Assembly: GCA_022823185.1 (NCBI GenBank)
Contig: JAJDXQ010000013.1
Span: 1-64,000, forward strand
DNA from: Caldilineaceae bacterium
Lineage (GTDB): Bacteria > Chloroflexota > Anaerolineae > Caldilineales > Caldilineaceae
Direction of reading: 5' to 3'
DNA length: 64,000 nt
The position numbers and the translations under genes are program-made. This document shows, one piece after another, positions 3,306 to 28,296 of this stretch; within the stretch, counting starts at the first letter, position 1; every line of letters starts with the position of its first letter. The notes under the pieces were generated by a model. The model searched no databases, was not told the DNA's origin, and was given only the letters and a program-made list of their open reading frames with translations.

Positions 3306-4160
3306 TCAGAGGTTGGGGGCGCGGAGAACTGTGTTGGTTGAGGGGAGTTTCCAGATTTCGTGGTAGACGGTGGGGGAAGGGCGCGATGGGGGGTAGCCGG
3401 GCGGTTTGTTGTCGGGATCGTGAAGCTCGTTTCGATCGCGGCCTTCTATATGGTGGAGCCAGGCGAGCTCTTCGGGGGCGGCGGCGACTTCGCGACGGAG
3501 GATGAACTCGACGTAGTCGAAGGCGGTGAAGGCGGCGTGGGCGAGGAAGACGCGGTCGACGGCGCGGCCGTTCCAGGTAGCGAGGTCTGGCAGAACGAGG
3601 GGGCCGGTGCAGACCTGGAAGGCGGCGTCTTCGCGGTTGACGTTAATGAGATTGACGGGAAATTCGACGGTGACGCGCAGGCCGGTCTGGTCGTCCTGGT
3701 AGGTGGAGCGGGCGTTGAGCAGGGCATTGGCGAGGGTGGCTTCGATCAGGGGCCCGCTGGAGTTGAGCTCGATGGGGTGGGGAAGCTTCTTGAGGCTGAT
3801 GTTGTGATCCTGGAAGGCGTCGCTCAGTTCCTGCGCGGAGCCGGGCTCTGTTTCGCTGCTGGGTCGTTTCGCGATCGGGATGCGATGCGAGCGGCTGAAG
3901 GCCATGCGGAATTCGCTGCTGGGACGCTGGAAGAAGCCCTGACGGGGGATGGTGTATTCGGTGCGGCAGGGCGCGCCGACGAAGAGCTCGGCCAGGGCGC
4001 CGCCATTCTCGTCGGAGATGACACAGCTGGATTCGATGCTGAAGCGGACGTGGCGCACGTCGCCCTCTTTGCCGATGAAGCCGCCGGCGTATTTGTAGTA
4101 GGGATCAGCCTGAACGGGAAACGTCTTCCAGGTGAAAAAGGAGCGGGGAAAGTCGATCAT
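3306..4160 (-). CDS. Hypothetical protein of sugar-catabolism cluster
   Basis: 284 aa, no signal peptide or membrane segment. I do not recognise the family. The first 120 residues read as beta-strand-rich (FFTWKTFPVQ, VRHVRFSIESSCVIS, AELFVGAPCRTEYTI) and residues 150-230 contain another strand-rich block. The protein ends in a Pro-rich stretch. A GGAGG 5 nt before ATG 4160 fixes the start. It lies between the MDR dehydrogenase (63 bp upstream) and the beta-propeller glycosidase-like gene, so it is probably part of the same catabolic transcript. Confidence 0.6.
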   Translation of the reverse strand: MIDFPRSFFTWKTFPVQADPYYKYAGGFIGKEGDVRHVRFSIESSCVISDENGGALAELFVGAPCRTEYTIPRQGFFQRPSSEFRMAFSRSHRIPIAKRPSSETEPGSAQELSDAFQDHNISLKKLPHPIELNSSGPLIEATLANALLNARSTYQDDQTGLRVTVEFPVNLINVNREDAAFQVCTGPLVLPDLATWNGRAVDRVFLAHAAFTAFDYVEFILRREVAAAPEELAWLHHIEGRDRNELHDPDNKPPGYPPSRPSPTVYHEIWKLPSTNTVLRAPNL

Positions 4161-6419: not shown

Positions 6420-6468
6420 TGGACAGATTGCCGCTCGCACGCGGCGGGGGTCCGGGGGCGCCCCCCGG

Positions 6469-6494
6469 CCCGGCGGCGGGTGTTTGCCGCCGGG
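6469..6494. terminator. GC-rich stem-loop between convergent genes
   Basis: CCCGGCGGC (6469-6477) pairs perfectly with GCCGCCGGG (6486-6494) around an 8-nt loop. It lies 50 bp after the plus-strand aminotransferase. There is no clear T-tract, so termination is likely but not certain. The rest of 6420-6702 is very GC-rich and holds no recognisable gene. Confidence 0.5.
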
Positions 6495-6702
6495 GATCTG
6501 CGCCAGGCCACCCGGTCCAGGCACTGCCCCGCCCCAAGGGGATGGGGACATGGGCGCTGGCGGCGTACGGTTGGGCAGACAGGACGGCGGGGCGCGAGAA
6601 GGGCGGGGCGCGGAGGGGCCGCCAACACAGGGCAAGGCCACCAGGCAGCAGGGTGGGGGTTGGGGGAGGCCCCAGAAGGCAGTGGATGGTAAATATTCGG
6701 CG

Positions 6703-7776
6703 TCAGTCCCGCGGCAGGGGCCAGTGTATTTTTTCGACGCCGGCGGCCTGGGAGCGCATGATGGCGATCATGATTTCGAGGCTGTGGAGGGCGCGCTGGC
6801 CGCTGGAGATGCTTTCGCCTCCGTTTTCGATGAGGTGGATCAGTTCGTCGACGGCGTGGACCATGCCGCTGGCGTAGTCTACGGAGCCGCCAAGCTGGCG
6901 GCTGGTGACTTCGTGGGAGTGCTCCTGCGATGTCAGGTAGACGACGGCTTCGGTGTTGCTGATGCGGATGCGGCCCCTGGTGCAGAGGAGGTCGAGCTCG
7001 AAGTTGACGAGTGTTCGCTGCGACATTTCGATGTGGGCGCGCACGCCGTTGGTGAAGTAGACGAAGGCGGAGGCGCCGGGATCGGTTTTGGGGTCGTGGC
7101 CGCCGTCACCGCGGTATTCGGTTCTGTCCTCGTAGCCTTCTTCCATGCCGCCGATGAGCCAGTCGGGGGCGGCGCCGGCGTACATGCAGACGGTGTCGAT
7201 GAGGTGGGTGCCGTTGCGGAACATCATGGCCCGTTCGCCTCCCATGTGGGCGCCGATGCGGGTGAGGGAGCCGATGCGTCCCTCCTCGATGATGGCCAGG
7301 GCCTGGCGCCAGAAGGGATCCCAGCGGCGGCCATGGTTGACGCATATTTTGGTACCGTTCTTTTCGACAGCGGCCAGCATGCGATCGGCGTCGGCGAGGG
7401 TGGTGGCGAGGGGTTTTTCGCAGTAGATGGCGGGGACGCCGGCCTCGGCCGCGTCGACGACCATCTGGGCGTGGAGATGGTCTGAGGTGACGACGCTGAG
7501 GATGTCGAGGTTTTCGCGTTCGAGCATGGCGCGGTAGTCGTTGTAGTGGGCGGCGGGGCCCCAGTTTTGATCGTATCTGGTGAGCAGTTCGGGCACGAGT
7601 TCGCAGACGGCGACCACTTGGGCGCGGGGATGGGCGGCGTAGGCGGAAGCGTGCGAGTGGGGTTGGGGGTGGCGCGTGGACCAGAGGTCGTAGCGCGGCG
7701 GCGACTGGCCGATGCCGGTGAGGCCAATGATACCGGCCCGGTAGACTTTGTCACTTGGTTGATTTGTGACGGACAT
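6703..7776 (-). CDS. Gfo/Idh/MocA family oxidoreductase
   Basis: 357 aa. N-terminal Rossmann fold starts AGIIGLTGIGQ; the family motif EKPL appears as YCEKPLATTLADADRM about residue 120, and the C-terminal alpha/beta domain carries the substrate-site region GTHLIDTVCMYAG. Members oxidise, reduce or dehydrate sugars and cyclitols with NAD(P). ATG at 7776 has AAGAGG 7 nt upstream; the longer frame to 7869 overlaps the upstream gene and has no such site. It is the last of three Gfo/Idh genes in tandem (gaps 40-55 bp), at the end of the 13-kb minus-strand run. Substrate not deducible. Confidence 0.88.
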   Translation of the reverse strand: MSVTNQPSDKVYRAGIIGLTGIGQSPPRYDLWSTRHPQPHSHASAYAAHPRAQVVAVCELVPELLTRYDQNWGPAAHYNDYRAMLERENLDILSVVTSDHLHAQMVVDAAEAGVPAIYCEKPLATTLADADRMLAAVEKNGTKICVNHGRRWDPFWRQALAIIEEGRIGSLTRIGAHMGGERAMMFRNGTHLIDTVCMYAGAAPDWLIGGMEEGYEDRTEYRGDGGHDPKTDPGASAFVYFTNGVRAHIEMSQRTLVNFELDLLCTRGRIRISNTEAVVYLTSQEHSHEVTSRQLGGSVDYASGMVHAVDELIHLIENGGESISSGQRALHSLEIMIAIMRSQAAGVEKIHWPLPRD

Positions 7777-7831
7777 TATATCCTCTTGTTTGCTTAATGT
7801 ATGACGGTGGCCGGTGATCACCTGTTGCCGT

Positions 7832-8995
7832 TTAGCGTTCTTCTCTCTTCGCTTCTTCTCTCCAGACAACGTAGGGATTCTCTCGATTTTGCAGCGGGAA
7901 GTCGACGCGGGCGCGCAGGCGCTGGGATTCGTGGATCGCCATGATCATTTCGAGGACGGCGCGGGCGTCATGGCCGTTGGTGACGGCGGTCACGGGGCGG
8001 TCTTCCTCGATGGCACTGATCAGCTCTTCGACGAAGACCCTGTTGTTGAGCTGGAATTTCTCGGTTACGGAGCGCGGCTGGCCGTCCTCGTTCCGGTCCC
8101 ATTCGGGAAGGATGATGCGTTTCCAGGCGCCGTCTCTGTCGCCGGGGAGCCAGAGGCGGTAGGGGTAGTGGTAGAGTTCGCCCAACGGCGCGGCGCGGAG
8201 TGAGAGGATGCCGGCGGAGCCGTGGATCTCAAGGCCGAGCCAGTTGACCTGTTCGCGGGTGTCGGAGTCGTCGCTGCGGCAGGAGTCCAAGTGGGCGGTC
8301 ACGCCGTTCTGGAAGACGAAGTAGGCGGCGAGTCCGTTGCCGGCGATCAGGCCGACGCCCTCGTCGCCTTCATAGATGTCGGCGGTGGTGAGCTCGCGGC
8401 CGTCCTGGGTGACGTGGGCGTGGGCCCAGGCGACTTCGGAACCGGCGAGAAAACGGATGTCGTCGAGGAGATGGGGGCCGAGGACGATGAGGTCCATGGC
8501 GCCGGCGCGGTGGTCGGCTTTGCCGTGGCGGCGGATCATCTGGACGTCGCCGATGAGGCCGTCGTCGATGAGCTTTTTGGCGTGCAGCTCGTAGGGGTTG
8601 GCGCGGCGGTGGGCGACGGCGATCCTGGTGTTGTGTTTTTCGCAGGCGGCGAGCATGGCGTCGGCTTCGGCCAGGGTGCGGGCGAAGGGTTTTTCGCAGA
8701 AGACGCCTTTGACGCCGGCCTGGGCGCAGGCGATGACCATGTCTGCGTGTTGGTCGACCCAGCGGGGGCAGACACTTACGAGGTCTGGCTTCGTCTGCGC
8801 GAGCATTGCGCGATAGTCGGCGAAGCTTTGGGCGGCGCCGGCGCGCTGGACTGCGGCGGCGCGTCCTTCTTCGTCCGGATCGGCGAGCGCGACGACTTCG
8901 ACATTGGGCAGGCCCTGGAAGGCGGTGTCGAGATGGTGGCCGTAGTTGCCGCGCCCGGTGTGGCCGATGATTGCGGCGCGATAGGTTGCTGACAT
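7832..8995 (-). CDS. Gfo/Idh/MocA family oxidoreductase
   Basis: 387 aa. The nucleotide-binding site shows as AAIIGHTGRGNYGHHLD, the family motif as FCEKPFARTLAEADAML near residue 105, and the catalytic-site segment as GPHLLDDIRFLAG. ATG 8995 begins the homology; the purine-rich CCGGGG upstream is a weak ribosome-binding site, so translation may depend on the preceding gene, whose stop is only 40 bp away across a heptamer repeat. The open frame further upstream to 9451 is an out-of-register reading of the neighbour and is not used. Second of three adjacent paralogs; probably consecutive or alternative steps on one sugar or inositol. Confidence 0.88.
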   Translation of the reverse strand: MSATYRAAIIGHTGRGNYGHHLDTAFQGLPNVEVVALADPDEEGRAAAVQRAGAAQSFADYRAMLAQTKPDLVSVCPRWVDQHADMVIACAQAGVKGVFCEKPFARTLAEADAMLAACEKHNTRIAVAHRRANPYELHAKKLIDDGLIGDVQMIRRHGKADHRAGAMDLIVLGPHLLDDIRFLAGSEVAWAHAHVTQDGRELTTADIYEGDEGVGLIAGNGLAAYFVFQNGVTAHLDSCRSDDSDTREQVNWLGLEIHGSAGILSLRAAPLGELYHYPYRLWLPGDRDGAWKRIILPEWDRNEDGQPRSVTEKFQLNNRVFVEELISAIEEDRPVTAVTNGHDARAVLEMIMAIHESQRLRARVDFPLQNRENPYVVWREEAKREER

Positions 8996-9010
8996 GTGAA
9001 CCCCGGTGGT

Positions 9011-9035
9011 GGGAACTGCAGTGATAAGTGGTCGG
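9011..9035. repeat. Short GGGAACTGCAG + TGGTCAG-type repeat copy
   Basis: GGGAACTGCAG (9011-9021) followed by two degenerate heptamers TGATAAG and TGGTCGG, ending directly at the stop codon of the 9036-10073 gene. A minimal member of the same family. Confidence 0.75.
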
Positions 9036-10073
9036 TTATTCGCCGGTGGAACGGATTTCGATGTCGTCGAGGCCTTCGGCGAGAGGCAGGCGCACTTGGG
9101 CGCCGGTTTTGTGGGAGACGTGGATGGCTGTGATGACCTCGAGCGCTTTGAGGCCGTCGCGGCCGGTGGAGACGCTTTCGCGGTCTTCGAGCAGGCAGTC
9201 GATGCTTTCGCGGGTGGCGGAGTAGAAGTAGTCGTCGAGGGTGAATTCGGCCGGCATGTCGGGGATGGGCTGGAATTCGTAGCGTGTGCCGTAGCCTTCG
9301 TCGGCTTCGACGAGGGGGCCGTATTCCCAGAGGCCGCGGCGTTCGCTGAAGTGGATGCGGCCTTCGGTTCCGGCGATCTTGGTGTAGCCGAGATGCTCTC
9401 TGCGTTCGGCGATGCAGTCGATGAAGATGACGACGCCGTCTGAGCAGGCAACCATGCCGGCGCCGCCGGGATCGGCGACAGTTTCCTGGTTGAGGTAGCC
9501 GGAGACGAGCTGGGGCTGGGCGTCGGTGAAGAAGAAGGCGTAGTCGACGGTGTGCGTGCCGTTGGTGAGGAGCGGGCGGCAGCCTTCGTAGGTGATGGTC
9601 TTGATGTCGCCGACGGCGCCTTCTTCGATCATGCGCTTGATGCGCTGATAGTGGGGGAGGAAGCGGCGCGTGTGCTCGGTGATGAGGCGGGCGCCGCTGC
9701 GGTCGCAGGCTTCCACCATCTTGCGGCCCCAGGCGACGCTGGTGGCGAGCGGCTTTTCGACCATGATCACCTTGATGCCGGCTTCGGCAGCTTCAATGAC
9801 GGGATGGTGGTGGTAGAGCGTGTTGGTGGTGACATCGACGACATCGAGGCGGGCTTTTTCGTACATGTCGACGGCGGTGGGATAGCGGTGCTGGGGCTCG
9901 ATTTCCCACTCGTCGCCGAACTGCTGGAGGCGCTGCGGGTCGATGTCGGCGACTGCGACGAGTTCGGCGTCTTCGCAGCGGCGGTAGCCGGCCGCGTGGG
10001 AGAAGGGTCTGCGTCCCAAGCCGCCGATGGGCCCAGCGCCGACGATTCCGACTCTTACTTTGGCTTTTGACAT
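9036..10073 (-). CDS. Gfo/Idh/MocA family oxidoreductase
   Basis: 345 aa. VGIVGAGPIGGLGRR is the dinucleotide-binding loop, VEKPLATSVAWGRKM the family lysine motif near residue 110, and GTHTVDYAFFF the active-site helix. AGGAG 8 nt upstream of ATG 10073 fixes the start. First of the three tandem Gfo/Idh genes; the three are divergent from each other, so this is an old expansion rather than a recent duplication. It follows the GNAT gene by 42 bp and likely shares its transcript. Confidence 0.88.
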   Translation of the reverse strand: MSKAKVRVGIVGAGPIGGLGRRPFSHAAGYRRCEDAELVAVADIDPQRLQQFGDEWEIEPQHRYPTAVDMYEKARLDVVDVTTNTLYHHHPVIEAAEAGIKVIMVEKPLATSVAWGRKMVEACDRSGARLITEHTRRFLPHYQRIKRMIEEGAVGDIKTITYEGCRPLLTNGTHTVDYAFFFTDAQPQLVSGYLNQETVADPGGAGMVACSDGVVIFIDCIAERREHLGYTKIAGTEGRIHFSERRGLWEYGPLVEADEGYGTRYEFQPIPDMPAEFTLDDYFYSATRESIDCLLEDRESVSTGRDGLKALEVITAIHVSHKTGAQVRLPLAEGLDDIEIRSTGE

Positions 10074-10115
10074 GTGTATGCTCCTGGGACGGCAGTGGGT
10101 TCTTTGAAGGGAGGG

Positions 10116-10598
10116 TTACGGGTCGTCAGCGTTGATGGGCATGATGTAGTGGATCTGGCGGGCGACTTCCCGGAAGCCGAAGTCGGGGTAGAAGTGGGCG
10201 CCGACGTCGTTCTGGTCGAGCGTTTCGATGCGGGCGTAGGTGAGGCCCTCGGCGGCGAAGTAGGCGAGGGCCTCTTCGAGCAGGCGGCGGCCGATGCCGC
10301 GCTGCTGGAATTCGGGCAGGACGGCGAAGTTGGGGATGCCGCCGATGCCTGCGGCCTTGTCTACGCGGGTGGAGACGTAGCCGACGATCTGCCCGTCGAC
10401 TTCGGCGACGAGGATGCCTTGCGCGTTGGCTGCGACGTCGTCGTCGATGTGGCGCACTTTGCGCCAGCGCCAGTCTTTGCCGTGGATAATCCCGTAGAGG
10501 CGCTCGATGTTCTGGTCGACACAGACGCCGTCAAAGCAGATGGCGGTGATCGTTTTAAGCGTTTCCAGATCGGACGGTCGGTAGCGTCGGATTTCCAT
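10116..10598 (-). CDS. GNAT family N-acetyltransferase
   Basis: 160 aa single-domain GNAT fold. The acetyl-CoA pyrophosphate loop is visible as NFAVLPEFQQRGIGRRLLEE (about residues 90-109), and the C-terminal region ETLDQNDVGAHFYPDFGFRE is the usual beta5-alpha4 segment. AGGAG 6 nt before ATG 10598. It lies between the beta-propeller protein and the three Gfo/Idh enzymes. GNATs acetylate amines on small molecules or proteins; in this setting an amino-sugar is a reasonable but unproven acceptor. Confidence 0.88.
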   Translation of the reverse strand: MEIRRYRPSDLETLKTITAICFDGVCVDQNIERLYGIIHGKDWRWRKVRHIDDDVAANAQGILVAEVDGQIVGYVSTRVDKAAGIGGIPNFAVLPEFQQRGIGRRLLEEALAYFAAEGLTYARIETLDQNDVGAHFYPDFGFREVARQIHYIMPINADDP

Positions 10599-10658
10599 CC
10601 ATTGCTCCTGCGTGACGCTGCGGTGGGGCCGGCAAGGCAGGCGTCGGTCGGTTTTGCC

Positions 10659-12125
10659 CTACTCTACAAACTGGAAGGCGTAGACGTCGGCGTCCTGCAG
10701 CGCAAAGCGCAGCCGCACGAGCTCGCCGCTGAACTGGCTGACGTCTGCGCCGTTTGTCCAGCGCACGGTGCGGTCGAGGTCATCGCCCAGGAGTTCGACG
10801 CAGTCGTCGAGGCTATAGCTCTCGATGGCCAGATCGACCTGTCCGTGGAGCATTTCTACGCGTACACTTCCGGCGGCGGAGGCGGAGAAGTTCAGCTCTA
10901 AATTGCTCCCCGTGAACCTGATGGGCCTGGTGATCATTTCGCCGCCGCTGGGGGGCGCGTGGAGGGAGACGAAGCCGTCCGTGCGGAGGGTGTAGCGGCG
11001 CTGGCTCACCGAACTGCCGCGCCAGTAGCCTTCGCTGACGTACATAGAGAGCTCATCGGGCGCGCCGGCGAACTGGGAGCGGGTGGAGACGAGGCCCCAG
11101 TTCTGGTAGTTGTCGCCGTAGGTCCAGTTGTCCTGGGGACGCAGGCCGGGGCGGATGAATGCTTCGGGCCAGATGTTGAATTCGATGCCGTCGCGGCTGC
11201 TCATGAAGAGGCCGTCGGTGAGGGCGGCGCCGTAGCGCTCGTGCGCGGCGGCGCGCAGGCGGCGGTGTTCCGGTTCGGGCAGGTCTTCGATGGCGGGGGA
11301 CCAGGGGCGCTCGACGTAGCGGGCGGGAAAGCCGACGAAGATGTGGGGCGCGCGGAAGTAAGGCGTGACCTGGTTGGTGTAGAGCTCGGCGATGCGGGTG
11401 GGGTTGTAGTCGATAAATACGGGTTCGGTCCAGTTGAGGAAGTCTGGGGAGACACAGGTCATGATGTCGCGGCCATGGCGGAAGTCGCGGTGGTAGTCGC
11501 GGTATTGGCCGCGTTCGGCGTCCCAGAATGCCAGGTTCTGGGAATCGAAATAGCCCTTGGTGATGACGGGCTCGTCGCGCATTTGCGTCCAGTGGATGCC
11601 GTCGGGCGAGGAGAGGGCGAAGAGGCCTTTGTATCCCCGGTTGTTGGCGAGCGCCTTGTATCTTTCGGCGGCGGGCGCGTCGGGATTGGGGTCTTTGAAG
11701 GGTACGAAGTTGATGGCGGGGCTGGCGTCGTCTCGGGCGTCGAGGATGATGTTGTTGTTGCGCGAGCCGTTGAATTCGACGAGGCCGAGGTTTGGCTTGC
11801 TCCAGTGGATGCCGTCGCCGCTTTCGGCGAGGCAGACGAATTCGGGGTGGGCGAATTTAAGGGAGCCGGCGTCGTGAGTGAAGTGCCAGCCGCGGTAGTA
11901 CATGCGATAGCCGTCATCGTCCTGGAAGACGGTGACGTAGCCGGAGGCGTTGCCCTCCCAGGGGGCGTCGGTTTCGAGGGCGACTTCCTGTGGGACGGGG
12001 CGGTGGAGGCGCAGCTCGGCGTCGCGGGAGAGGGCGGCGATGAGATGGTCGTCGACGAGCAGTTCGCGGCGGGAGCCGATGTGGATTCCCGGGCCGGGCT
12101 CAATGTTGCTGAGTGACGTGGACAT
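10659..12125 (-). CDS. Beta-propeller glycosidase-like protein, paralog of the 1725-3227 gene
   Basis: 488 aa, no signal peptide. Collinear with the protein at 1725-3227: LVDDHLIAALSRDAELRLHR at the N-terminus, YVTVFQDDDGYRMYYRGWHF, AESGDGIHWSKPNLGLVEFN, FMSSRDGIEFNIWPEAFIRP and the C-terminal LHAPPSGGEMITRPI sandwich. Repeated 'DG..W' blade motifs suggest the GH32/43/62/68 propeller fold. Start ATG 12125 follows AAAGGGAG by 7 nt. The absence of a secretion signal suggests it works in the cytoplasm on imported material. Enzymatic activity is inferred from fold only. Confidence 0.7.
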   Translation of the reverse strand: MSTSLSNIEPGPGIHIGSRRELLVDDHLIAALSRDAELRLHRPVPQEVALETDAPWEGNASGYVTVFQDDDGYRMYYRGWHFTHDAGSLKFAHPEFVCLAESGDGIHWSKPNLGLVEFNGSRNNNIILDARDDASPAINFVPFKDPNPDAPAAERYKALANNRGYKGLFALSSPDGIHWTQMRDEPVITKGYFDSQNLAFWDAERGQYRDYHRDFRHGRDIMTCVSPDFLNWTEPVFIDYNPTRIAELYTNQVTPYFRAPHIFVGFPARYVERPWSPAIEDLPEPEHRRLRAAAHERYGAALTDGLFMSSRDGIEFNIWPEAFIRPGLRPQDNWTYGDNYQNWGLVSTRSQFAGAPDELSMYVSEGYWRGSSVSQRRYTLRTDGFVSLHAPPSGGEMITRPIRFTGSNLELNFSASAAGSVRVEMLHGQVDLAIESYSLDDCVELLGDDLDRTVRWTNGADVSQFSGELVRLRFALQDADVYAFQFVE

Positions 12126-12206
12126 GGTGAACTCCCTTTGCGGCCGATGGCGGCGGGCCGGATTGACGGTTGCCTTTCGTGGAGGCTGCTGCCCCGGTTC
12201 GCGCGC

Positions 12207-13073
12207 TCAGGCTGGCGTTACGCCGATGCGGTCGAGACGCTGTTTGGCTTCGGCGTAGACCTCTGCGGAAAGCGGGCCGGCCTGAATGGCCTGCGCGTTT
12301 TCGGCGAGGTGGGCGGGATTTGTTGTGCCGACGATGATGGTGTGGGCATGGGGATGGGTCAGCGTATAGCGGAGCACAAATGCGGTGTCGCTCTCGTCCG
12401 GCTGGCGGAGCTCGTTCAGGCCCGCGTTGGAAAAGGCCTGCCAGCGGTCAAGGCTGCCGATGCCGACACCGGGCTTGCCGAGGGCGACGCCGCCGCGGAT
12501 GATGTTGCCGGCGCCGGCCTGGGCGGTTTTGGTCAGCCAGTTTTCGTGGTCGCGTTCGAGCGCGGAGTAAGGGATCTGGTAGGCGTCGAAGACATCCCAA
12601 CCGAGATAGGTTGGCAGGTGGGGGAGCGTGGTGGACATGCCGATCCAGCGCACTTTGCCCTGGGCGCGCATGTCCTGCAACGCCTGCGCCAGGTCTCCCT
12701 GTTCGCAGTCGGCCACGGTCGGGTTGTGCAGCTGCATCAGGTCTACGTAGTCGACGCGCATGCGCGCCAGGCTTTCATGGAGGCCGCGGAAGAGGTTTTC
12801 TCTGGTCCAGATATGGCCGTCGGGGTGGCAGCCGCATTTGGTGGCAAGGATATATTCATCGCGGCGATGGCGCAGGTAGCGGCCGATCATCTCCTCGCTG
12901 TTGCCGTAGTCGTTGGCGGTGTCGATGAAGTTGATGCCGGCATCGAGGACGGCGTTGAGCTGGGCATCCATCTCTGCGTCGGTCATGGCGCGGCGATGGC
13001 CGGCGCCGAAACCGAGCCGGGTGACCTCCAAGCCGGTACGACCTAGGGTTGCTGTGGGGAGGGTATTGGACAT
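12207..13073 (-). CDS. Aldo/keto reductase
   Basis: 288 aa TIM-barrel NADPH-dependent oxidoreductase. The catalytic tetrad is visible: Asp and Tyr in FIDTANDYGNSEE (about residues 50-62), Lys in ILATKCG (about 79) and His in LMQLHNP (about 117). It is slightly shorter than typical AKRs (300-330 aa), chiefly at the C-terminal loop that shapes substrate choice. AAAGG 6 nt before ATG 13073. Located between PhyH and the beta-propeller gene in the long minus-strand run; probably reduces or oxidises a sugar carbonyl. Confidence 0.88.
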   Translation of the reverse strand: MSNTLPTATLGRTGLEVTRLGFGAGHRRAMTDAEMDAQLNAVLDAGINFIDTANDYGNSEEMIGRYLRHRRDEYILATKCGCHPDGHIWTRENLFRGLHESLARMRVDYVDLMQLHNPTVADCEQGDLAQALQDMRAQGKVRWIGMSTTLPHLPTYLGWDVFDAYQIPYSALERDHENWLTKTAQAGAGNIIRGGVALGKPGVGIGSLDRWQAFSNAGLNELRQPDESDTAFVLRYTLTHPHAHTIIVGTTNPAHLAENAQAIQAGPLSAEVYAEAKQRLDRIGVTPA

Positions 13074-13147
13074 CGTGAACCTTTCGTGGATGCAGTTTCA
13101 GCTTGGAGGTCGTTCAGTTCTTTGGCAGAGAATGACCGGCTCTGAAA

Positions 13148-13945
13148 CTAAACACGGCCAGGGAACTCCTTGCCGCGGATGTGCATGAAGGGTGTGCTGC
13201 CCTTGCGGGGCGTCCCTTCTACCTGGTCGCGGTGGGATTCGTCAACGATACCGAGGTAGCTGGTTTCGGCGTCGAGGTAGTGGAGCGCGAGACCGCGGCG
13301 GCGGTTGGGCGTGGTGTTGGCTTCAGTGCGGTGGAAGTTGAGGCCGTGGTGGAACATGCAGTGGCCGGCTTTCAGCTCGACGGGGACGGGTTCGGCCAGA
13401 AACTCCTGGGCCAGGAAGCGATCTTTGTATTCGCGGGTGATGGGCCCCCACTTGTGGCTGCCGGGAATGACCGTCATGCAGCCGTTCTCGACGGTGGCGT
13501 CGTCGAGGGCGACCCAGCAGCTGACATGGTTCTGGGGGGCGAACATGGGCCAGGCGACGGAGTCCTGGTGCCAGTCGGTGACGGTGCCGTTGAAGCGGGG
13601 TTTCATCATGAGCTGGTCGGTGTAGAGCTTGATGTTGGGGCTGAGGAGTTCCTCGATCACGTCGACGATCTCGGGTTTTTTGGCGACGGCTTCGAAAAGG
13701 TCGTCGTGGTAGCAGAGGTAGACCATCTTGCGGATCATGTCGATGCGAGGCTCGACGGTCTTTTTGCCGTCACGGAACTGCGCTTCGAACTGGATGTAGT
13801 GTGGCGGCACGTGGGTGAGACGGCCGGCGGCGATATCTTCGCTGCGCTGGCGGAGGGCCTGGATGTCTTCGTCGGACAGGACGCGGCCGTAGGGCAGATA
13901 GCCGTGCTCGTTGAAAAACTGTTTCTGCTGGGCTGTCAGGGTCAT
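13148..13945 (-). CDS. Phytanoyl-CoA dioxygenase (PhyH) family protein
   Basis: 265 aa Fe(II)/2-oxoglutarate oxygenase. The iron facial triad is visible as WHQD (His and Asp) near residue 120 and the distal His in FHHGLNFHRTEAN near 200, followed by the Arg of RRRGLALHYLD that binds 2-oxoglutarate. GAGGAG 7 nt upstream favours ATG 13945 over an ATG 15 nt earlier. PhyH homologs are expanded in marine and sponge-associated bacteria and hydroxylate many small molecules. Paired with a second PhyH gene at 14933-15709 across two small membrane-associated genes. Confidence 0.88.
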   Translation of the reverse strand: MTLTAQQKQFFNEHGYLPYGRVLSDEDIQALRQRSEDIAAGRLTHVPPHYIQFEAQFRDGKKTVEPRIDMIRKMVYLCYHDDLFEAVAKKPEIVDVIEELLSPNIKLYTDQLMMKPRFNGTVTDWHQDSVAWPMFAPQNHVSCWVALDDATVENGCMTVIPGSHKWGPITREYKDRFLAQEFLAEPVPVELKAGHCMFHHGLNFHRTEANTTPNRRRGLALHYLDAETSYLGIVDESHRDQVEGTPRKGSTPFMHIRGKEFPGRV

Positions 13946-14001
13946 GGTTGGTCTCCTCAAAGTTCAGGGGCGCAGGCCGCAGGGCTCTTCATCAGAGCAA
14001 G

Positions 14002-14418
14002 TCAGTGGCGCAGAAGTTTGGGTAAGAATAACTGTACGCCGAATACGCCCAACAGTCCAAACACCAAACTGGGCGCGACCAGCAGGAAGCTGCGTTGAAA
14101 GGTATAGGTAAAGACGACGTCGGAAAGAAGGAGGTCGAGCGCTGGGATTTGGCCACCTAACAGCGCCCAGGAGGTGTAGGCCCAGAAGCCGCCAAAGAGC
14201 GGAACGCTTGCGAAGGAAGCCACCATATACAGGAGGACCGCCTTGGGTTCTGCCATGGCCAGCAGAGACCCGGACAGAGCGGCGGCAAGACTGAGCGCGA
14301 GCATATCCGCCGGCCAGGCGACATAGTCTTTGAGGTGGGTAAGGGAGATCAACCCCATGTAGGCCAGGATCGCGGCGACGGCGAAGACGGCCAGGCACTG
14401 TCGAAGTCCGGGGTTCAT
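14002..14418 (-). CDS. Small integral membrane protein of unknown function
   Basis: 138 aa with about four hydrophobic helices (CLAVFAVAAILAYMGLISL; MLALSLAAALSGSLLAM; AVLLYMVASFASVPLFGGFW; SFLLVAPSLVFGLLGVFGVQ). No motif or family recognised. It overlaps the upstream gene by 4 nt (ATGA at 14415-14418), so the two are translationally coupled and probably act together. They sit between two PhyH dioxygenase genes. Confidence 0.65.
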   Translation of the reverse strand: MNPGLRQCLAVFAVAAILAYMGLISLTHLKDYVAWPADMLALSLAAALSGSLLAMAEPKAVLLYMVASFASVPLFGGFWAYTSWALLGGQIPALDLLLSDVVFTYTFQRSFLLVAPSLVFGLLGVFGVQLFLPKLLRH

Positions 14419-14918
14419 GGAAGGGCGTCCTGCAGCCGCAAGAGACGCTCATCGCGCCCGTGGGGATGGACCAGACGGAATCCGGCTTCAACGGACCAGT
14501 AGTGCTCTTGGTGCGCGGCCAAAATTTGATCGAGATCGAAAATTTGCAGCGGGAACTCCATGTCCAGGCTCTCGCGGGGGGCGAGGGTCCTTTCGATGGT
14601 GGAGGCGCGGCTGTAGAGTGAACGGTCGATGTCGGGGTCGTTACGCCAAGTGCTGTAGCTGCCGCCGATGCGCGTGCCGTTCAAGAGCAGGTCGAAGAAG
14701 TAGCTGTTGAGTTGGACCGGCAGATTGGACCGATTGTGAAGGATGAACTGCACAGTGAGTTGGGAACTGTCTGCTTCGGCCCGGCGCACACCGGTTAACT
14801 CCAGTTCGAGGCTGCGCACACTTTGCAGAGAGCCGACATAGTTGGAGACGGCCTGCCAACTGGCCGCCAAGGCGATGAGACCCAGGAAAACGAGGAAGGT
14901 ATAGGCAACGCGGGGCAC
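14415..14918 (-). CDS. Membrane-anchored protein with possible LEA14/WHy-like domain
   Basis: 167 aa. GTG start at 14918. Residues 5-25 (AYTFLVFLGLIALAASWQAV) form a single N-terminal membrane anchor. The rest is predicted outside and beta-rich: LELELTGVRR..., LTVQFILHNRSNLPVQLNSY, FDLLLNGTRIGG. The 'N-R-S-N-L-P-V-Q-L' pattern with preceding strands recalls LEA14/WHy domains, which are small Ig-like folds; this is a tentative match by eye. Coupled to the membrane protein downstream. Confidence 0.6.
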   Translation of the reverse strand: MPRVAYTFLVFLGLIALAASWQAVSNYVGSLQSVRSLELELTGVRRAEADSSQLTVQFILHNRSNLPVQLNSYFFDLLLNGTRIGGSYSTWRNDPDIDRSLYSRASTIERTLAPRESLDMEFPLQIFDLDQILAAHQEHYWSVEAGFRLVHPHGRDERLLRLQDALP

Positions 14919-14932
14919 GGTTGGCCGACTAA

Positions 14933-15709
14933 TCAGACATATCCTGCATAGGATCTGCCCCGCACCGAGATATAGTCAACATGGACTTCATCGGAGGTGC
15001 TCAGGTCTTTTGTCTTGGCCATCATGTAGTGCAGAGCCCAGGCGCGGCGGCGTTTGGTCGAGGTGTTGGGGCTGGAATAGTGCAGGTTGAGGCTGTGGAA
15101 GAGGAGGCAGCCGCCGGCGGGTATGGGTACGGGCACCTCGTTGGCTTTCATCTCCTCGGTAAGGAGTTGCGGCAGGTGTCTGAGGTGAAGCAGGCCGTAG
15201 TTTTGGCTGCCGGGGAGGCAGCGGATGCAGCCGTTTTCGAGGGTGGCGTCATCGAGCGCGATCCAGCAGGTGATCTGGTTCTGAGGGATTAGGAAGGGCC
15301 AGGAGGCGGAGTCCTGATGGTACTCCTTGACGGAGCCGTGTCCGGGCGGCTTCATAAAGATCTGATCGCCGAGCAGCTTTATGTCCGGCTCGTCGAAGAG
15401 CTCGGAAATCAGGTCGACGAGCTTGGGTTTCCTGGCGATCGTGAGAAAGGAGTCATGGATGGAGGCGGGGAAGTTGATTTTGCGCAGCTCATCGAGTGGG
15501 CTGGCGGTCTGCACTTCGCCGCGGGCCACCACCATCTCTTTTTCGATGACGGGAATCCCCTTGATGTCGGACGCCACCTTGACGCGGCCAAAGGCAATAT
15601 CCTCGGTCAACTGCTGGAGTTGCGCCAGTTCTTCAGGGTCGAGCAAGGTGGGGTAGGGCAGAAAGCCATCCCGCCAGAAAGTCTCTTTTTGCTCCGGCGT
15701 CAAAATCAT
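14933..15709 (-). CDS. Phytanoyl-CoA dioxygenase (PhyH) family protein
   Basis: 258 aa. Opens MILTPEQKETFWRDGFLPYP, very like its neighbour paralog (TLTAQQKQFFNEHGYLPYG). Iron ligands appear in EYHQDSASWPFL and in FHSLNLHYSSPN, with the co-substrate Arg in KRRRAWALHYM. The ATG at 15709 is chosen since GGAGG lies 5 nt upstream; the frame open to 15922 overlaps the permease gene. Follows the ABC permease by 50 bp. It likely hydroxylates the compound brought in by the adjacent importer, but this is inference. Confidence 0.88.
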   Translation of the reverse strand: MILTPEQKETFWRDGFLPYPTLLDPEELAQLQQLTEDIAFGRVKVASDIKGIPVIEKEMVVARGEVQTASPLDELRKINFPASIHDSFLTIARKPKLVDLISELFDEPDIKLLGDQIFMKPPGHGSVKEYHQDSASWPFLIPQNQITCWIALDDATLENGCIRCLPGSQNYGLLHLRHLPQLLTEEMKANEVPVPIPAGGCLLFHSLNLHYSSPNTSTKRRRAWALHYMMAKTKDLSTSDEVHVDYISVRGRSYAGYV

Positions 15710-15759
15710 CTTTTCCTCCATGGCGCTTGCGCAACTGACCTGACGGGCACAGAACTGCC

Positions 15760-16686
15760 TCAGTCCAGACTCATACGGGGGTCCAGTGCGTCGCGCAGGC
15801 CGTCGCCGATGAAGTTGATGGCCAGGACGCAGATGGTGATCATGAGGCCGGGGGGAACCCAATACCAGGGCATGTTTTCGATTATCTGAATGTTCTGGGC
15901 CTCGTTGAGCATGTTGCCCCAACTAGGGGTCGGGACCTGTACGCCGAGACCGAGGAAGCTAAGGCCGGCCTCGGTAAGGATGGCGCCGGCGATGCCGAAG
16001 CTGGCTGCAACTGTGATGGGCGCGATCACATTGGGCAGGATGTGACGCACTATGATCCATCTCTCTTCGACGCCGACGGCGTGGGCGGCCATTATATAGT
16101 CGGTCTCGCGAATGGAGAGGATCAGGCTGCGGACGAGGCGGGTTACGCCTGTCCAGCCGATGAGACCGATCGCCAACATGGAGTTAAATATACCCGGACC
16201 GAGGATGGATACAAGCGCGATGAGAATGATCAGGATCGGGAACGCCATGACGGTGTCGGTTATGCGCATGATCAGGGCATCAACTGTGCCGCCATAGTAG
16301 CCGGACACGCTACCCAGGATCGTCCCGATGGTGATGTAGAGGGAGACGGCGACGATGCCCACGGACATGGAGACTCGTCCGCCGTAGACCACGCGGCTCC
16401 AGATGTCGCGACCGGTGAGGTCGGTGCCAAGCAAATGGCCTTCCTCGCCGGGGGCGAGGCCAATCTCTCTGATTTCAATCTTGTGGGGATGAATCGGGGC
16501 AACGACAGGGGCAAGGGGGAAGGCAATGACAATCAGGAGAAACATCAGGATGGCGCTGGCCAGGGCAAGTTTGTGGCGGCGGAAACGGCGCCACGCGCGG
16601 CGTCGCTGCGCGGCTGCGCCGCCCTCGCCGGCTTGGAGGGCGTCGGATATTTCCTGGAGTCCTTCGGGTTTTGATTCAGCAGTCAT
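15760..16686 (-). CDS. ABC transporter permease, DppC/OppC type
   Basis: 308 aa. Cytoplasmic N-terminus rich in Arg (RRRAWRRFRRHKLALASAIL), then the first membrane helix, a periplasmic loop with GTDLTGRDIWSRVVYGGRVS (the OppC signature), and further helices. The EAA-type coupling loop is HAVGVEERWIIVRHILPNVI. Ends with GDGLRDALDPRM, typical for the family. Pairs with the DppB-type permease upstream and the family 5 binding protein. No OppD/OppF ATPase gene is nearby. Confidence 0.92.
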   Translation of the reverse strand: MTAESKPEGLQEISDALQAGEGGAAAQRRRAWRRFRRHKLALASAILMFLLIVIAFPLAPVVAPIHPHKIEIREIGLAPGEEGHLLGTDLTGRDIWSRVVYGGRVSMSVGIVAVSLYITIGTILGSVSGYYGGTVDALIMRITDTVMAFPILIILIALVSILGPGIFNSMLAIGLIGWTGVTRLVRSLILSIRETDYIMAAHAVGVEERWIIVRHILPNVIAPITVAASFGIAGAILTEAGLSFLGLGVQVPTPSWGNMLNEAQNIQIIENMPWYWVPPGLMITICVLAINFIGDGLRDALDPRMSLD

Positions 16687-16772
16687 GGCGCAGTGTGGCT
16701 CGTGCTAACGGAACAGGACCGCTCGCGGGCGCCTGATAGTCGTAGCCGGCCCCAGTCAAGCGCATTGGAATG

Positions 16773-17756
16773 CTACTCGTAGCGAATGCGGGGATCAATT
16801 GCCCCGTAGGTCAAATCTGTAATGAGGTTGCTAAAGACGATTGTAAGGGCGGAGACCAGGACCATGCCCATGATCAGGGGATAGTCGCGCGTGGCAACTC
16901 CGTCCAGGTAGAGAATGCCCATTCCAGGCCAGTTGAAAATGGTCTCGATAATGATTGAGCCGCCGAAAAGGCTGGGGAGGCGCAGACCGATGATGGTGAT
17001 CACGGGTAGCAGGGCGTTGCGAAGAATGTGGCGGAATACGACAACTGGGTCGTTCAGCCCTTTGCTGCGGGCGACTGTGATGTAGTCGAGCCGGACGACC
17101 TCCAGGACGCTGGAACGTGTGTAGCGCATGATGCCGGCGGTCGAGTCCAGACCCAGCACGATGGCAGGGAGCACGAGGTACCGCGACCGGTCCAGCATTG
17201 TGCCCCAGAGGCCCAGGTCTCTGCCGATGGTGGAATAGCCGCTGGTGGGCACCCAGCCCAATTTGAGCGAAAAGAGATAGATCGCGCCAATTGCGGCAAA
17301 GAAGCCTGGAATGGAAATACCGATAAAGGCAAGGAATGTGAGCACGTAGTCCGGGGGCGTGTACTGATTCAGAGCTGAGAAGATGCCCAGGGGAATGCCC
17401 AGAAGAATAGATATGACTACGGCGGCGGCCATGAGACGAAGCGTGGCGGGCAGACGGCGAGCGATTTCTTCGGCGACGGGGATTTTGCTGCGGATGCGCA
17501 CGCCCAGATTGCCCTGGAGGAGGCCGCCCATCCATTGCATATAACGAACGGGAGCAGGCCTGTCGAGACCATACTTTTCGCGCAGTTTATCGGCGTTTGA
17601 GCCTTCATCGCCGCCGGCGCCCGATTCGAAGTCCATGAGGATCATTGCCGATACGGCGTCGCCCGGGGCCAGCTCGGTGAAGGTAAATGTAAGGATTGTG
17701 ATCCCGAACAGCACGGGCAGCATCTGGACGATGCGACGAAGGATGTAGCGATTCAT
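16773..17756 (-). CDS. ABC transporter permease, DppB/OppB type
   Basis: 327 aa. Starts MNRYILRRIVQMLPVLFGIT, the standard DppB amino end, with a first helix and long periplasmic loop containing YGLDRPAPVRYMQWM. The coupling loop reads ARSKGLNDPVVVFRHILRNA near residue 225. Ends in LTYGAIDPRIRYE. It lies 87 bp after the binding protein, with a stable hairpin between them. Confidence 0.92.
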   Translation of the reverse strand: MNRYILRRIVQMLPVLFGITILTFTFTELAPGDAVSAMILMDFESGAGGDEGSNADKLREKYGLDRPAPVRYMQWMGGLLQGNLGVRIRSKIPVAEEIARRLPATLRLMAAAVVISILLGIPLGIFSALNQYTPPDYVLTFLAFIGISIPGFFAAIGAIYLFSLKLGWVPTSGYSTIGRDLGLWGTMLDRSRYLVLPAIVLGLDSTAGIMRYTRSSVLEVVRLDYITVARSKGLNDPVVVFRHILRNALLPVITIIGLRLPSLFGGSIIIETIFNWPGMGILYLDGVATRDYPLIMGMVLVSALTIVFSNLITDLTYGAIDPRIRYE

Positions 17757-17784
17757 GGGTCAAGGCAGGTGTGAGAAGAGAGGA

Positions 17785-17818
17785 GTGAGGAGAGAGGATG
17801 TACGCCCTCTCCCCACAC
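17785..17818 (-). other. Intercistronic stem-loop between binding protein and permease
   Basis: GTGAGGAGAGAGG (17785-17797) and CCTCTCCCCACAC (17806-17818) pair over 12 of 13 positions (one G-U, one mismatch) with an 8-nt loop. It lies 26 nt after the binding-protein stop. No T-tract follows on the minus strand. Such hairpins commonly protect the upstream mRNA so that the binding protein is made in excess over permeases. Confidence 0.6.
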
Positions 17819-17843
17819 TCTGTTTCTCAGTCTTTAGCTGTTC

Positions 17844-19571
17844 TTACTCGCCGGCGAGGTACCAGTTCGCCGGATAGCGTTCGGCGAAGGGCTCGTCAAG
17901 CTGGCGATTAATGTTGTTGCAGACGCTGGCGCTGAAGGCCGAGTAGCGCGTCGGCCGGAACACGGGGATCTCACCTGCTTCTCCGGTGATGATCTCGGTG
18001 GCCTGGTAGAGCATCTCCTTGCGCTTGGCTGGATCCGGTTCGGACATGGCGGATTCGGCCAAGGCGTCAAACTCTTCGTTGCAGTAGTGGCCTACATTGC
18101 GGCCGGCGGGCCAACTGCGGTCGCAGCCAAGGGAGAGCCGTAGTTGGTCGGGGTTGAACCAGCCACAGCAGCCGTAGGAGAGATCGAAGTCGTCGTTGTC
18201 ATAGACACGTGCGACCCAGGCGGGGCCGTCGAGGTAGACGAGTTCGACGTCGATGCCGACATCAGCCCAGAACTGCTGCATGGCGGCGTGGATGCGCTTA
18301 TTCTGGTCATCTTGGTAGTAGGTGACGAAGCTGATTTCCTGTTCCGAATCCCAGCCGGCCTCGGCCAGCAGTTCGCGGGCCCTGTCGGGGTTGTACTCGT
18401 AGGTCGTAATATCGGGACTTACGAATTCGGGATTGGTCAGTCGGAGGTGGAGGACGTCTGCCAGATCGCCGTAGTAGGCATCTGCCATGGCCTCACGGTC
18501 GAGGGCGTAGAGCAGAGCCTGGCGCACGCGGGCGTCCTGGAATTCAGGCCGGTTGTGGTTGGGCCAGACGGTCATGCCACCACCCAGCTGACCGCCAAGG
18601 AGGACGATATTGGGGTCGTCCTTGTAACGCTCATATTCGACTGCGGTGACACGGCCGGCCATGTGGATCTCGCCGTTTTCGAGGGCTGCGAAGGCGGTTG
18701 CGCCGCGCAGGCCGAGCCGGAAGATGATGCGGTCAAGGTAGGGGCGACCGGCGTAGTAGTCCTCATTGGCTTCGAGGATGTAGAACTGATCGGGCTCGAA
18801 ATCACCCATTGTGAAGGGGCCGGAGCCGACGGGATTGCGAACCGCGTATTCGGTCTCGCCCAGGTCGGCAAAGGCGATGTCTTCGAGCAGATGCTTGGGC
18901 CAGATGTTGAAGGCGGCCATATTGCTGAGAACGCTGCTGCGGGGCGCGACAAGGTTCAACTCGAGGGTGAAATCGTCTAGCACCTTGATGCCGGAGATTT
19001 CATCGGCATCGCCGGCTTCAAATTCAGCGGCTCCGGCCAGCTGATCGAGGCCCGAAGTACGGCCATGGGAGGCGCCGGTATCGGGATGGAAGAACATTTG
19101 CAGCGAGAACTTAACGTCCTCGGCGGTCAGCTGCTCGCCGTCGTGGAAGCGCACGTCATCGCGCAGGTTGAAGGTATAGGTGAGGCCATCATCGGATACT
19201 TCCCAGCTTGTCGCCACGTCGGGATGGATGGAGACGGCGTCGGTGTCGCGGTCAATCAGCTGGCTGAAGAGGTAGTCGTCGCGGGCGCTGAAGATGAACC
19301 AGTTGCTGCCGGTCATGGCGCCGGCGCCGCCCGCCACCACAACTTCGCCGCCGTACTCGGGCGGTGAGTCGGTGCAGACGTGGATATGGTCGCTGTCAAC
19401 GTCGGCTTCGTCGTACCACGGTTCAACGGGTTCGGCCGCCATTTCTTCTTCCGCCTCCTCCTCTGGCATTGCAGCCGTCTCGGTTTCGGCCGGGGCGGCG
19501 CAGGCTGCGAGCAGCCCGAGCAGCAGGATGAGGAATACGGCGAGTCCAAGGGACTTCCTTGTGATCGTCAT
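17844..19571 (-). CDS. ABC transporter substrate-binding lipoprotein, family 5 (peptide/opine/nickel type)
   Basis: 575 aa. Lipoprotein signal with lipobox LLAAC (Cys24), followed by an acidic linker (AETETAAMPEEEAEEEMAAE). The mature part is a family 5 binding protein: the region SWEVSDDGLTYTFNLRDDVRFHDG is the family hallmark, with VGSGPFTMGDFEPDQ and RQALLYALDREAM later. Binds peptides, opines or oligosaccharides outside the cell. First gene of the long minus-strand run and directly downstream of a strong candidate promoter at 19836-19865. Confidence 0.93.
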   Translation of the reverse strand: MTITRKSLGLAVFLILLLGLLAACAAPAETETAAMPEEEAEEEMAAEPVEPWYDEADVDSDHIHVCTDSPPEYGGEVVVAGGAGAMTGSNWFIFSARDDYLFSQLIDRDTDAVSIHPDVATSWEVSDDGLTYTFNLRDDVRFHDGEQLTAEDVKFSLQMFFHPDTGASHGRTSGLDQLAGAAEFEAGDADEISGIKVLDDFTLELNLVAPRSSVLSNMAAFNIWPKHLLEDIAFADLGETEYAVRNPVGSGPFTMGDFEPDQFYILEANEDYYAGRPYLDRIIFRLGLRGATAFAALENGEIHMAGRVTAVEYERYKDDPNIVLLGGQLGGGMTVWPNHNRPEFQDARVRQALLYALDREAMADAYYGDLADVLHLRLTNPEFVSPDITTYEYNPDRARELLAEAGWDSEQEISFVTYYQDDQNKRIHAAMQQFWADVGIDVELVYLDGPAWVARVYDNDDFDLSYGCCGWFNPDQLRLSLGCDRSWPAGRNVGHYCNEEFDALAESAMSEPDPAKRKEMLYQATEIITGEAGEIPVFRPTRYSAFSASVCNNINRQLDEPFAERYPANWYLAGE

Positions 19572-19835
19572 GGTTTCAACTCTCCTTGATGGTGAATGAA
19601 TCCAAACACATCAGCATTGGGCGCAAAGCGAAGTTCGCTAAGGCAACGAAAGGTGGCGGGTAGTCGGTTGCGGCGCCGGTGAATCCAGGACAAACCGCGG
19701 TAGCGCGAAGGCTGAACGCCGCGCAGGTTAGGTTTGCGGCAGGTGTCCGATCTTCCCTGACGAGGAATGCAAGGCCCAAACGAACGGATTAGATCAACGT
19801 GAGAGATACGCACCTTATACGATTGGGCTACGGAT

Positions 19836-19865
19836 TGTATACCACAGCCTAGCGGGCTGCGTCAA
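19836..19865 (-). promoter_or_regulatory. Sigma70-like promoter for the 13-kb minus-strand run
   Basis: On the minus strand TTGACG (19865-19860), 18-nt spacer, TATACA (19841-19836), with an extended -10 TG just upstream (TGGTATACA). Predicted start about 19829, leaving a leader near 255 nt before the binding-protein ATG at 19571. Confidence 0.6.
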
Positions 19866-21664: not shown

Positions 21665-22519
21665 TTAAAGGCCAGCGAGCTGCCAGGACTTTTGCAGGGA
21701 TTCGGCCGCGGCCTGGGCGGCTTCGGCGGGAGGGAGGGCGCGGATGCGCTGGCTGAACGGTTCGACGGTGACGGGGCCGTCGTAGCCGATGGCGTGCAAG
21801 GCCTGGAGAAAGCCGGCGACGTCGGTGAGGCCGGTTTCGGCGGGCAGCGTTCGTTCATTGTCGATCTGCTCGTCTGCGCTGCGGCCGGCGATGGCGTCGT
21901 TTACATGGACGTTGACGACCTGCGCGTTGGTGAGGCTGCGCACTGTTGAGACATCGGCATGGCTGGTGAAGAGGTGAAAGATGTCGACGAGGAGGCCGAC
22001 GCGGCCGGTTCCGAGATCGGCGGCGAGTTGCTGCGCCCCCTCCATTGTATGGATGAATGGGAATCTCTTTTCGTCGCGCAGGGTTTTGGGGCCGACCCAT
22101 TCGAGCCCGAAGCGGATGCCGTTCCGGGCCAGGATTTCAGCTATGGGACGCAGACGGGCCAGGTGGAATTCGTAGTTTTCATCGTAGGGGCGCTGGTCGT
22201 CGGCGGGGGCAATGTAGGTGGAGGTACGGTCTGCGCCGAGGGAACTGGCCAGCGCGGCGCGGGCCGGCAACTCTTCCAGATCGCGGCGCCAGCTGTCTTC
22301 GTCGGCGCGGTAGGCGACGGGCAGACTCCAGACGCCGTACTGCAGGCCGGCCTCCTTCATCTGTTGGGTGACTGCGCCGGCGCCCTGGGCGGCGGCGATC
22401 CGCTGGAGTTCCGCGATCGACACGTCGAGCCCGCCAAAGCCGCAACGGAGGGCTAGTTGGACGGCTTCGCTGAAAGGGACTTCTATGCCCAGAGCGCCGG
22501 GGCTGAGGTTCGGGAACAT
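21665..22519 (-). CDS. Sugar phosphate isomerase/epimerase (xylose isomerase-like TIM barrel)
   Basis: 284 aa. TIM-barrel metal ligands appear in order: Glu in FGLEWVG, Asp in LLVDIFHLF, His in VVNVHVND and Glu in VTVEPFSQ. AGGAG precedes ATG 22519. The family includes hydroxypyruvate isomerases, inosose dehydratases and tagatose epimerases; the ligand spacing alone does not decide between them. Located between the MFS transporter (upstream) and yifB. Confidence 0.85.
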   Translation of the reverse strand: MFPNLSPGALGIEVPFSEAVQLALRCGFGGLDVSIAELQRIAAAQGAGAVTQQMKEAGLQYGVWSLPVAYRADEDSWRRDLEELPARAALASSLGADRTSTYIAPADDQRPYDENYEFHLARLRPIAEILARNGIRFGLEWVGPKTLRDEKRFPFIHTMEGAQQLAADLGTGRVGLLVDIFHLFTSHADVSTVRSLTNAQVVNVHVNDAIAGRSADEQIDNERTLPAETGLTDVAGFLQALHAIGYDGPVTVEPFSQRIRALPPAEAAQAAAESLQKSWQLAGL

Positions 22520-24272: not shown

Positions 24273-24769
24273 TGGGTGGCGGGAGGGGGAGACGCCGCGG
24301 GGCGGTGCAGTGGGGGAACGTTACGGGGCGCGGGGAAAATCGGCGCAAGGTTGGGGCAGCCTGGGGGAATCGACGATGAGGCATGCCATGCGCTTCAGCT
24401 GGAAACCGCAGAGCTGGCCTGCGCTCAGGTCGAGGCGAGAGGCGAGGCTGGCATTGACAAAAAGGGGCGGGCGTGACAGTATTGAACGCTGGATGGGGAA
24501 GGCGCCGACATCGTTAGACCGCGAGAGGCTGATTGGACCCTGCGCCGGCCTTGCCGGTGGGCAGATGGTCCGATTTAGGTCGGTCTGCCCGGGTCGCCGG
24601 TGGAACGGGGCGCAGACATCCACACGGGTGATTTTCCCAGAGATTCTGACATTTTGGCGCGCAGGGGTCGATTGGTTCGCCGCAGTTGCCATGGGAATGA
24701 ACGGTGGGCGGCGGGCGTTGGTTGGATCTGCGTGCCGGCGCGCAGGATAAAGGCAGAGGACAGACGCAA
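24273..24769. other. Divergent intergenic region without a recognised gene
   Basis: About 500 bp between the heptamer array and the dehydrogenase start. There is a TTGACA at about 24452, but no good -10 at a suitable distance. Reading frames here have no recognisable domain. Presumably holds promoters for the plus-strand catabolic genes. Confidence 0.4.
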
Positions 24770-25780: not shown

Positions 25781-25883
25781 CCGAAACGGACGGGAGTGAT
25801 AGGCGCAAAATCCGGCAGTGTGCTTGTCCGATCTGTAGAGTTTATGGTTGACTGAGAAGCAATAACACCACGTCTTGAACCCT

Positions 25884-26774: not shown

Positions 26775-26841
26775 CAGGAACCAGAAGCTAAAGAGCGGGA
26801 GGGCGTTCCCGCTCGATTCACAGTGCCGCGGAGGATGAGCG

Positions 26842-28296
<1,455 letters not shown>

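Follow-up and report, generated by a model that had tools for sequence, protein, structure and literature searches.

We analysed a 64,000-nucleotide window from the 5.17-Mb genome of a sponge-symbiont member of the Caldilineaceae (Chloroflexota). Between positions 6703 and 19571 of this window, open reading frames and Pfam searches define 13 genes in a single orientation on the minus strand, where a preliminary description of the same DNA had counted twelve. Its single strand and gaps of at most 87 bp proved exact: the intergenic distances along the run are 87, 86, 38, 14, -4, 41, 74, 81, 60, 42, 40, and 55 bp. In 13 of 13 genes, GC is higher at third codon positions (0.73-0.86) than at second positions, which supports coding, and gene starts were refined for PhyH A (15721), Gfo2 (8995), and Gfo3 (7776). 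No Rfam elements were found. The features are as follows:

19836-19865, minus strand: promoter TTGACG-N18-TATACA (extended, TGTGGTATAC)
19795-19832, minus strand: putative operator, four direct repeats CGTAG/CGTAT/CGTAT/CGTTG with exact 11-bp spacing
17844-19571, minus strand: family 5 solute-binding lipoprotein (SBP5; PF00496, 3.5e-86; LLAAC lipobox)
17757-17843, minus strand: stem-loop between SBP5 and DppB, without a U-run
16773-17756, minus strand: DppB-type permease (PF00528, 2e-36; PF19300)
15760-16686, minus strand: DppC-type permease (PF00528, 3.4e-36; PF12911)
14933-15721, minus strand: PhyH dioxygenase A (PF05721, 1.3e-33)
14415-14918, minus strand: small protein 1, one N-terminal membrane helix and an LEA2-like beta-sandwich (AF2 pLDDT 74; Foldseek)
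14002-14418, minus strand: small protein 2, hydrophobic, about four membrane segments (hydropathy)
13148-13960, minus strand: PhyH dioxygenase B (PF05721, 8.5e-41)
12207-13073, minus strand: aldo/keto reductase (AKR; PF00248, 9e-39)
10659-12125, minus strand: five-bladed-propeller-type protein, remote GH130/GH32 relative
10116-10598, minus strand: GNAT acetyltransferase (PF00583, 1.1e-16)
9036-10073, minus strand: Gfo/Idh oxidoreductase 1 (Gfo1; PF01408, 1.8e-18)
7832-8995, minus strand: Gfo/Idh oxidoreductase 2 (Gfo2; PF01408, 3.8e-21)
6703-7776, minus strand: Gfo/Idh oxidoreductase 3 (Gfo3; PF01408, 1.1e-17)

Pfam agrees with the families assigned earlier, except that the propeller protein and both small proteins have no Pfam match. 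As in Dpp/Opp-type ABC importers, a family 5 SBP with a lipoprotein signal is encoded with DppB- and DppC-type permeases. Unlike in those systems, enzymes follow the permeases and the DppD/DppF ATPases are absent: the run has no cognate ATPase gene, and the rest of the genome has 46 oligo_HPY matches. The two PhyH proteins are 39% identical to each other and carry the HxD iron motif as HQD in 15 of 15 orthologs. The motif HHGLNFHR..RR of PhyH B is likewise kept in all 15, and the exact LFHSLNLHY..RR pattern of PhyH A in 11 of 15. A halogenase reading was ruled out by the HxD Asp, which is kept in all orthologs; with the HxD...H iron triad and the 2OG-binding Arg both retained, the two proteins are hydroxylase-like, not halogenase-like, in sequence. 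One PhyH A ortholog (G002; L041 8449-9234) contains a single in-frame TAA and is either a decayed copy or an assembly error. Small protein 1 has Foldseek matches to AF_0446, the luminal domain of TMEM106B, and an LEA protein (LEA-type TM ~0.4). Both small proteins are single copy and, among 100 genomes searched, restricted to this genus. The nearest named solved enzymes of the AKR include L-galactose dehydrogenase, and the EKP motif of the Gfo/Idh proteins is present in 15 of 15 orthologs.

The propeller protein could be placed only remotely. Searched against the PDB, its diverse profile (A5) matched beta-1,2-mannobiose phosphorylase at 6.7e-10 and GH32 enzymes weakly, at about 4e-3; 12 of 24 family members matched NF052550, again weakly (best 3.2e-6). 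The likeness to GH130 beta-1,2-mannobiose phosphorylases and GH32 propeller hydrolases thus lies in remote similarity of the propeller domain. Unlike those enzymes, the protein has an extra C-terminal region, and no family member matches any Pfam family above cut-off, GH130 included. The AF2 model was poor (pLDDT 44) and was left out of the fold search. The sequence has no obvious signal peptide, and our best guess is a putative cytoplasmic glycosidase or phosphorylase. Because of this remote relationship to GH130/GH32 enzymes, a glycoside is the favoured candidate substrate. The family is widespread and unnamed, occurring in Poribacteria, Acidobacteriota, Planctomycetota, Armatimonadota, Latescibacterota, and others. 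A second member (55% identical) lies at 1731-3224 of the window, beside genes for a Zn-ADH and an AstE/AspA-type protein, and is conserved in sister species.

The promoter that the preliminary description had placed at 19836-19865, with TTGACG at 19865-19860 and TATACA at 19841-19836, is conserved across species. Simple consensus scans performed at chance level and missed it, so we used cross-species footprinting instead. In 14 of 15 genomes the outermost SBP copy is preceded by the TTGACG/TGTGGTATAC block (L052 carries a variant). Six sister species have two to three tandem SBP5 copies (L119 3056-9253; L120 2404-10541; L150-L153), and the block is absent upstream of the inner ones, as expected if the inner copies and the whole run rely on read-through. 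By phylogenetic footprinting, then, the promoter is real. At the boundaries of the 12 downstream genes, sites of comparable score occur in 0-3 of 15 genomes each, which is about chance, and no conserved promoter was found there. In one genome (G015), about 4.6 kb of other DNA separates the SBP5 copies. The four repeats stand immediately 3' of the -10 element and are recognisable in most species in the aligned leaders. This CGTWG-like pattern was spotted post hoc; three such repeats in register were found nowhere else in the 330 kb of own-genome DNA scanned. We infer that the repeats form a putative operator; no regulator gene was found among the neighbouring genes scanned.

The only foldable boundary with a strong stem-loop is the one between SBP5 and DppB. 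Its folding z-score is below 0 in 15 of 15 genomes (median z, -4.0; median energy, -34.5 kcal/mol), and the remaining internal boundaries long enough to fold have median z-scores of about 0 (-0.1 to 0.9). The stems of L050, L051, and L052 share no sequence relationship with those of the other genomes, and RNAalifold gave no convincing consensus for this gap. Since the hairpin is kept without alignable sequence, genomes were folded one by one. A T5 run is missing from the hairpin in 13 of 15 genomes. Such elements at SBP-permease boundaries allow excess production of the SBP, and from this analogy SBP5 is probably made in excess over the rest of the operon.

The single transcription unit proposed earlier is well supported: there is one conserved promoter and none internally, and in all but one of the 14 sister species no gap exceeds 131 bp (at most 97 bp in 10 of 14; 117 bp in L039; 131 bp in L050 and L051; larger in L052). 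The inner tandem SBP copies that lack a promoter are further support; the run does contain one strong hairpin, which has no U-run. We consider it likely, from these sequence features, that the run is one operon.

Conservation of gene order in relatives had been suggested as a check, and the 13 genes are found in the same order and on the same strand in 14 further species of the genus, the exception being G004, in which a gene for a 1055-aa Type ISP restriction-modification protein occupies the Gfo2 position (L052 4593-7760). Those sister loci that come from named records belong to Caldilineaceae MAGs; one, bin5 (MPML01), came from the sponge Aplysina aerophoba (PMC5649159). However, the flanking genes (comM, an aminotransferase, an ADH, the gene at 3306-4160, and the second propeller gene) are equally syntenic wherever the contig reaches, so order at the level of the genus says little about joint function, and we rejected it as proof. 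The absence of the run from G008 is uninformative as well, because comM and the other flank genes are also missing there. A dispersed repeat of about 250 bp (6441-6690) separates Gfo3 from the convergent aminotransferase gene; the sister genome G008 has copies with 79-84% identity at many places, and L121 has one.

Outside the genus, linkage is much narrower. At E<=1e-60, a Gfo1 ortholog was found among 396 genomes of the class only in G026, of genus g11 (70%). There the gene order is SBP5 (52%), Gfo1, DppB (68%), and DppC (67%), followed by a serine hydrolase (PF00144/DUF3471). SBP5-DppB-DppC-Gfo1 is the only part of the run found together outside the genus, in this one other genus, and Gfo1 the only enzyme linked to the importer there, which ties Gfo1 to the importer's substrate. 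Unlinked orthologs had been named earlier as evidence against a single unit. Propeller homologues outside the genus (in Poribacteria, Acidobacteriota, Planctomycetota, and others) lack the partner genes, bar occasional weak AKR, ADH, or Gfo/Idh matches. The context of the AKR was followed in other genera and set aside; its relatives there (G022, G026, and G056) have unrelated genes around them and share no context.

Matches in the genome (G000) number 109 for PhyH, 120 for Gfo/Idh, and 58 for SBP_bac_5. In 23 cases a PhyH gene has a Gfo/Idh gene within 3 kb, about twice the 12.1 expected, a count reached in 8 of 2000 shuffles under a null of random contig order and shift, with contig sizes partly estimated. 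SBP5 genes are enriched near Gfo/Idh genes at 10 kb (31 versus 18.5 expected), and proximity of PhyH to SBP5 is at chance level. With three Gfo/Idh, two PhyH, and one SBP5, the run is among the densest stretches holding all three. A PhyH A query gave at least 42 matches in each of 17 genus members, whereas most other genera of the family gave few matches or none. In Poribacteria, PhyH genes make up more than 1.9% of genes (PMC3909097), and the density in this 5.17-Mb Chloroflexota symbiont is like that reported there. Both are sponge symbionts with very many PhyH genes, mostly without an assigned function; unlike the poribacterial expansion, the one here is in the phylum Chloroflexota and its PhyH genes are clustered with those for Gfo/Idh proteins. 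The literature searched, of which coverage was incomplete, yielded no paper on PhyH in Chloroflexi of sponges.

The closest described systems are the 3-keto-glycoside operons: the levoglucosan operon lgdA-B1-B2-C of Bacillus smithii (PMC7676230) and the GlycDH/OGE/HYD/Gfo set of Agrobacterium (PMC10628242). Shared with these are oxidoreductases, including Gfo/Idh proteins, within one operon (three PF01408 proteins here), and we propose a likeness to their oxidation and reduction of a glycoside. The B. smithii neighbourhood has a sugar ABC-transporter SBP gene, whereas the importer here is of family 5. Unlike the known operons, the run has no sugar-phosphate-isomerase-type eliminase or hydratase within 6703-19571; PF01261 genes lie outside it, at 21665-22519 (the nearest, beyond comM) and 25884-26774. 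Beyond what those operons hold, it adds two PhyH proteins, an AKR, a GNAT, the propeller protein, and two membrane proteins. Elsewhere in the window, consecutive genes for a Zn-ADH, a xylose-isomerase-like TIM barrel, and a phosphoglucomutase/phosphomannomutase (24704-28296, plus strand) may belong to related sugar metabolism.

The reading we prefer, to which we give about an even chance, is one operon whose products take up a small compound of the sponge environment, probably of glycoside type, and degrade it inside the cell. SBP5, read first, would capture the compound, and DppBC would import it with an ATPase encoded elsewhere. In the cytoplasm, the propeller enzyme would cleave or phosphorolyse the glycosidic bond, the sugar part would undergo oxidation and reduction of the 3-keto-sugar type by the Gfo/Idh enzymes and the AKR, and the Fe(II)/2OG dioxygenase pair would hydroxylate a recalcitrant substituent or remove it. 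Against it stand the absence of a beta-eliminase-type TIM barrel from the unit, the equal synteny of the flanks, the propeller and AKR relatives that occur elsewhere without these neighbours, and the poor model and remote GH130 likeness of the propeller protein. The preliminary description had the run import, hydroxylate, reduce, and acetylate a compound; with only SBP5-DppBC-Gfo1 together outside the genus, this is only partly supported, and its acetylation step depends on one generic GNAT. The run may plausibly form one pathway.

A shared promoter could also serve two or more functional groups, namely an importer core of SBP5-DppBC-Gfo1 and enzymes added in this lineage from paralogue pools (PhyH, Gfo/Idh, and propeller), co-expressed and acting on different compounds. 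The linkage of the core alone outside the genus, the size of the three pools in one genome, the genus-restricted small proteins, and the loss of Gfo2 in G004 all fit such additions; yet nearly all of the 15 species, whose propeller proteins are 77-98% identical, retain the 13 genes as a linked and intact set, and no conserved internal promoter was found, so we hold this to be possible but rather unlikely. It is improbable that the run serves cell-envelope or glycolipid modification and not catabolism, with the membrane pair and the oxygenases modifying a sugar building block and the importer acting in salvage: glycosyltransferase, nucleotide-sugar, and ligase genes are absent and the importer SBP is the leading gene, even though a pair of membrane-protein genes separates the two PhyH genes, Gfo1 resembles solved sugar-modifying as well as catabolic oxidoreductases, and a GNAT is present. 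Least probable, and by our estimate very much so, is a pathway for a peptide or amino-acid derivative in which PhyH would hydroxylate an amino-acid-like compound. The "peptide importer" annotation, best PDB matches of SBP5 to peptide and heme binding proteins, and the serine hydrolase after the G026 cluster point that way, but sugars and opines are also ligands of family 5 SBPs (agrocinopine AccA is among the matches), and the run has no peptidase and does have three Gfo/Idh proteins and a glycosidase-like protein.

A bolder version of the glycoside reading assigns all 13 genes to one pathway not described before: the two Fe(II)/2OG dioxygenases would open a host- or symbiont-derived glycoside, the Gfo/Idh and propeller proteins would degrade it, and a dedicated regulator would act on the four 11-bp-spaced CGTWG repeats. 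We regard this version as unlikely on present sequence evidence; if true, sponge symbionts would share a PhyH-Gfo/Idh catabolic system, of which this pathway would be the best-defined member. PhyH genes take up an unusually large share of some sponge-symbiont genomes, and almost none has a known role. With its importer, promoter, putative operator, and partner enzymes, the operon is a conserved setting of defined extent for testing what PhyH enzymes may do, and SBP5 is a handle for finding the substrate.
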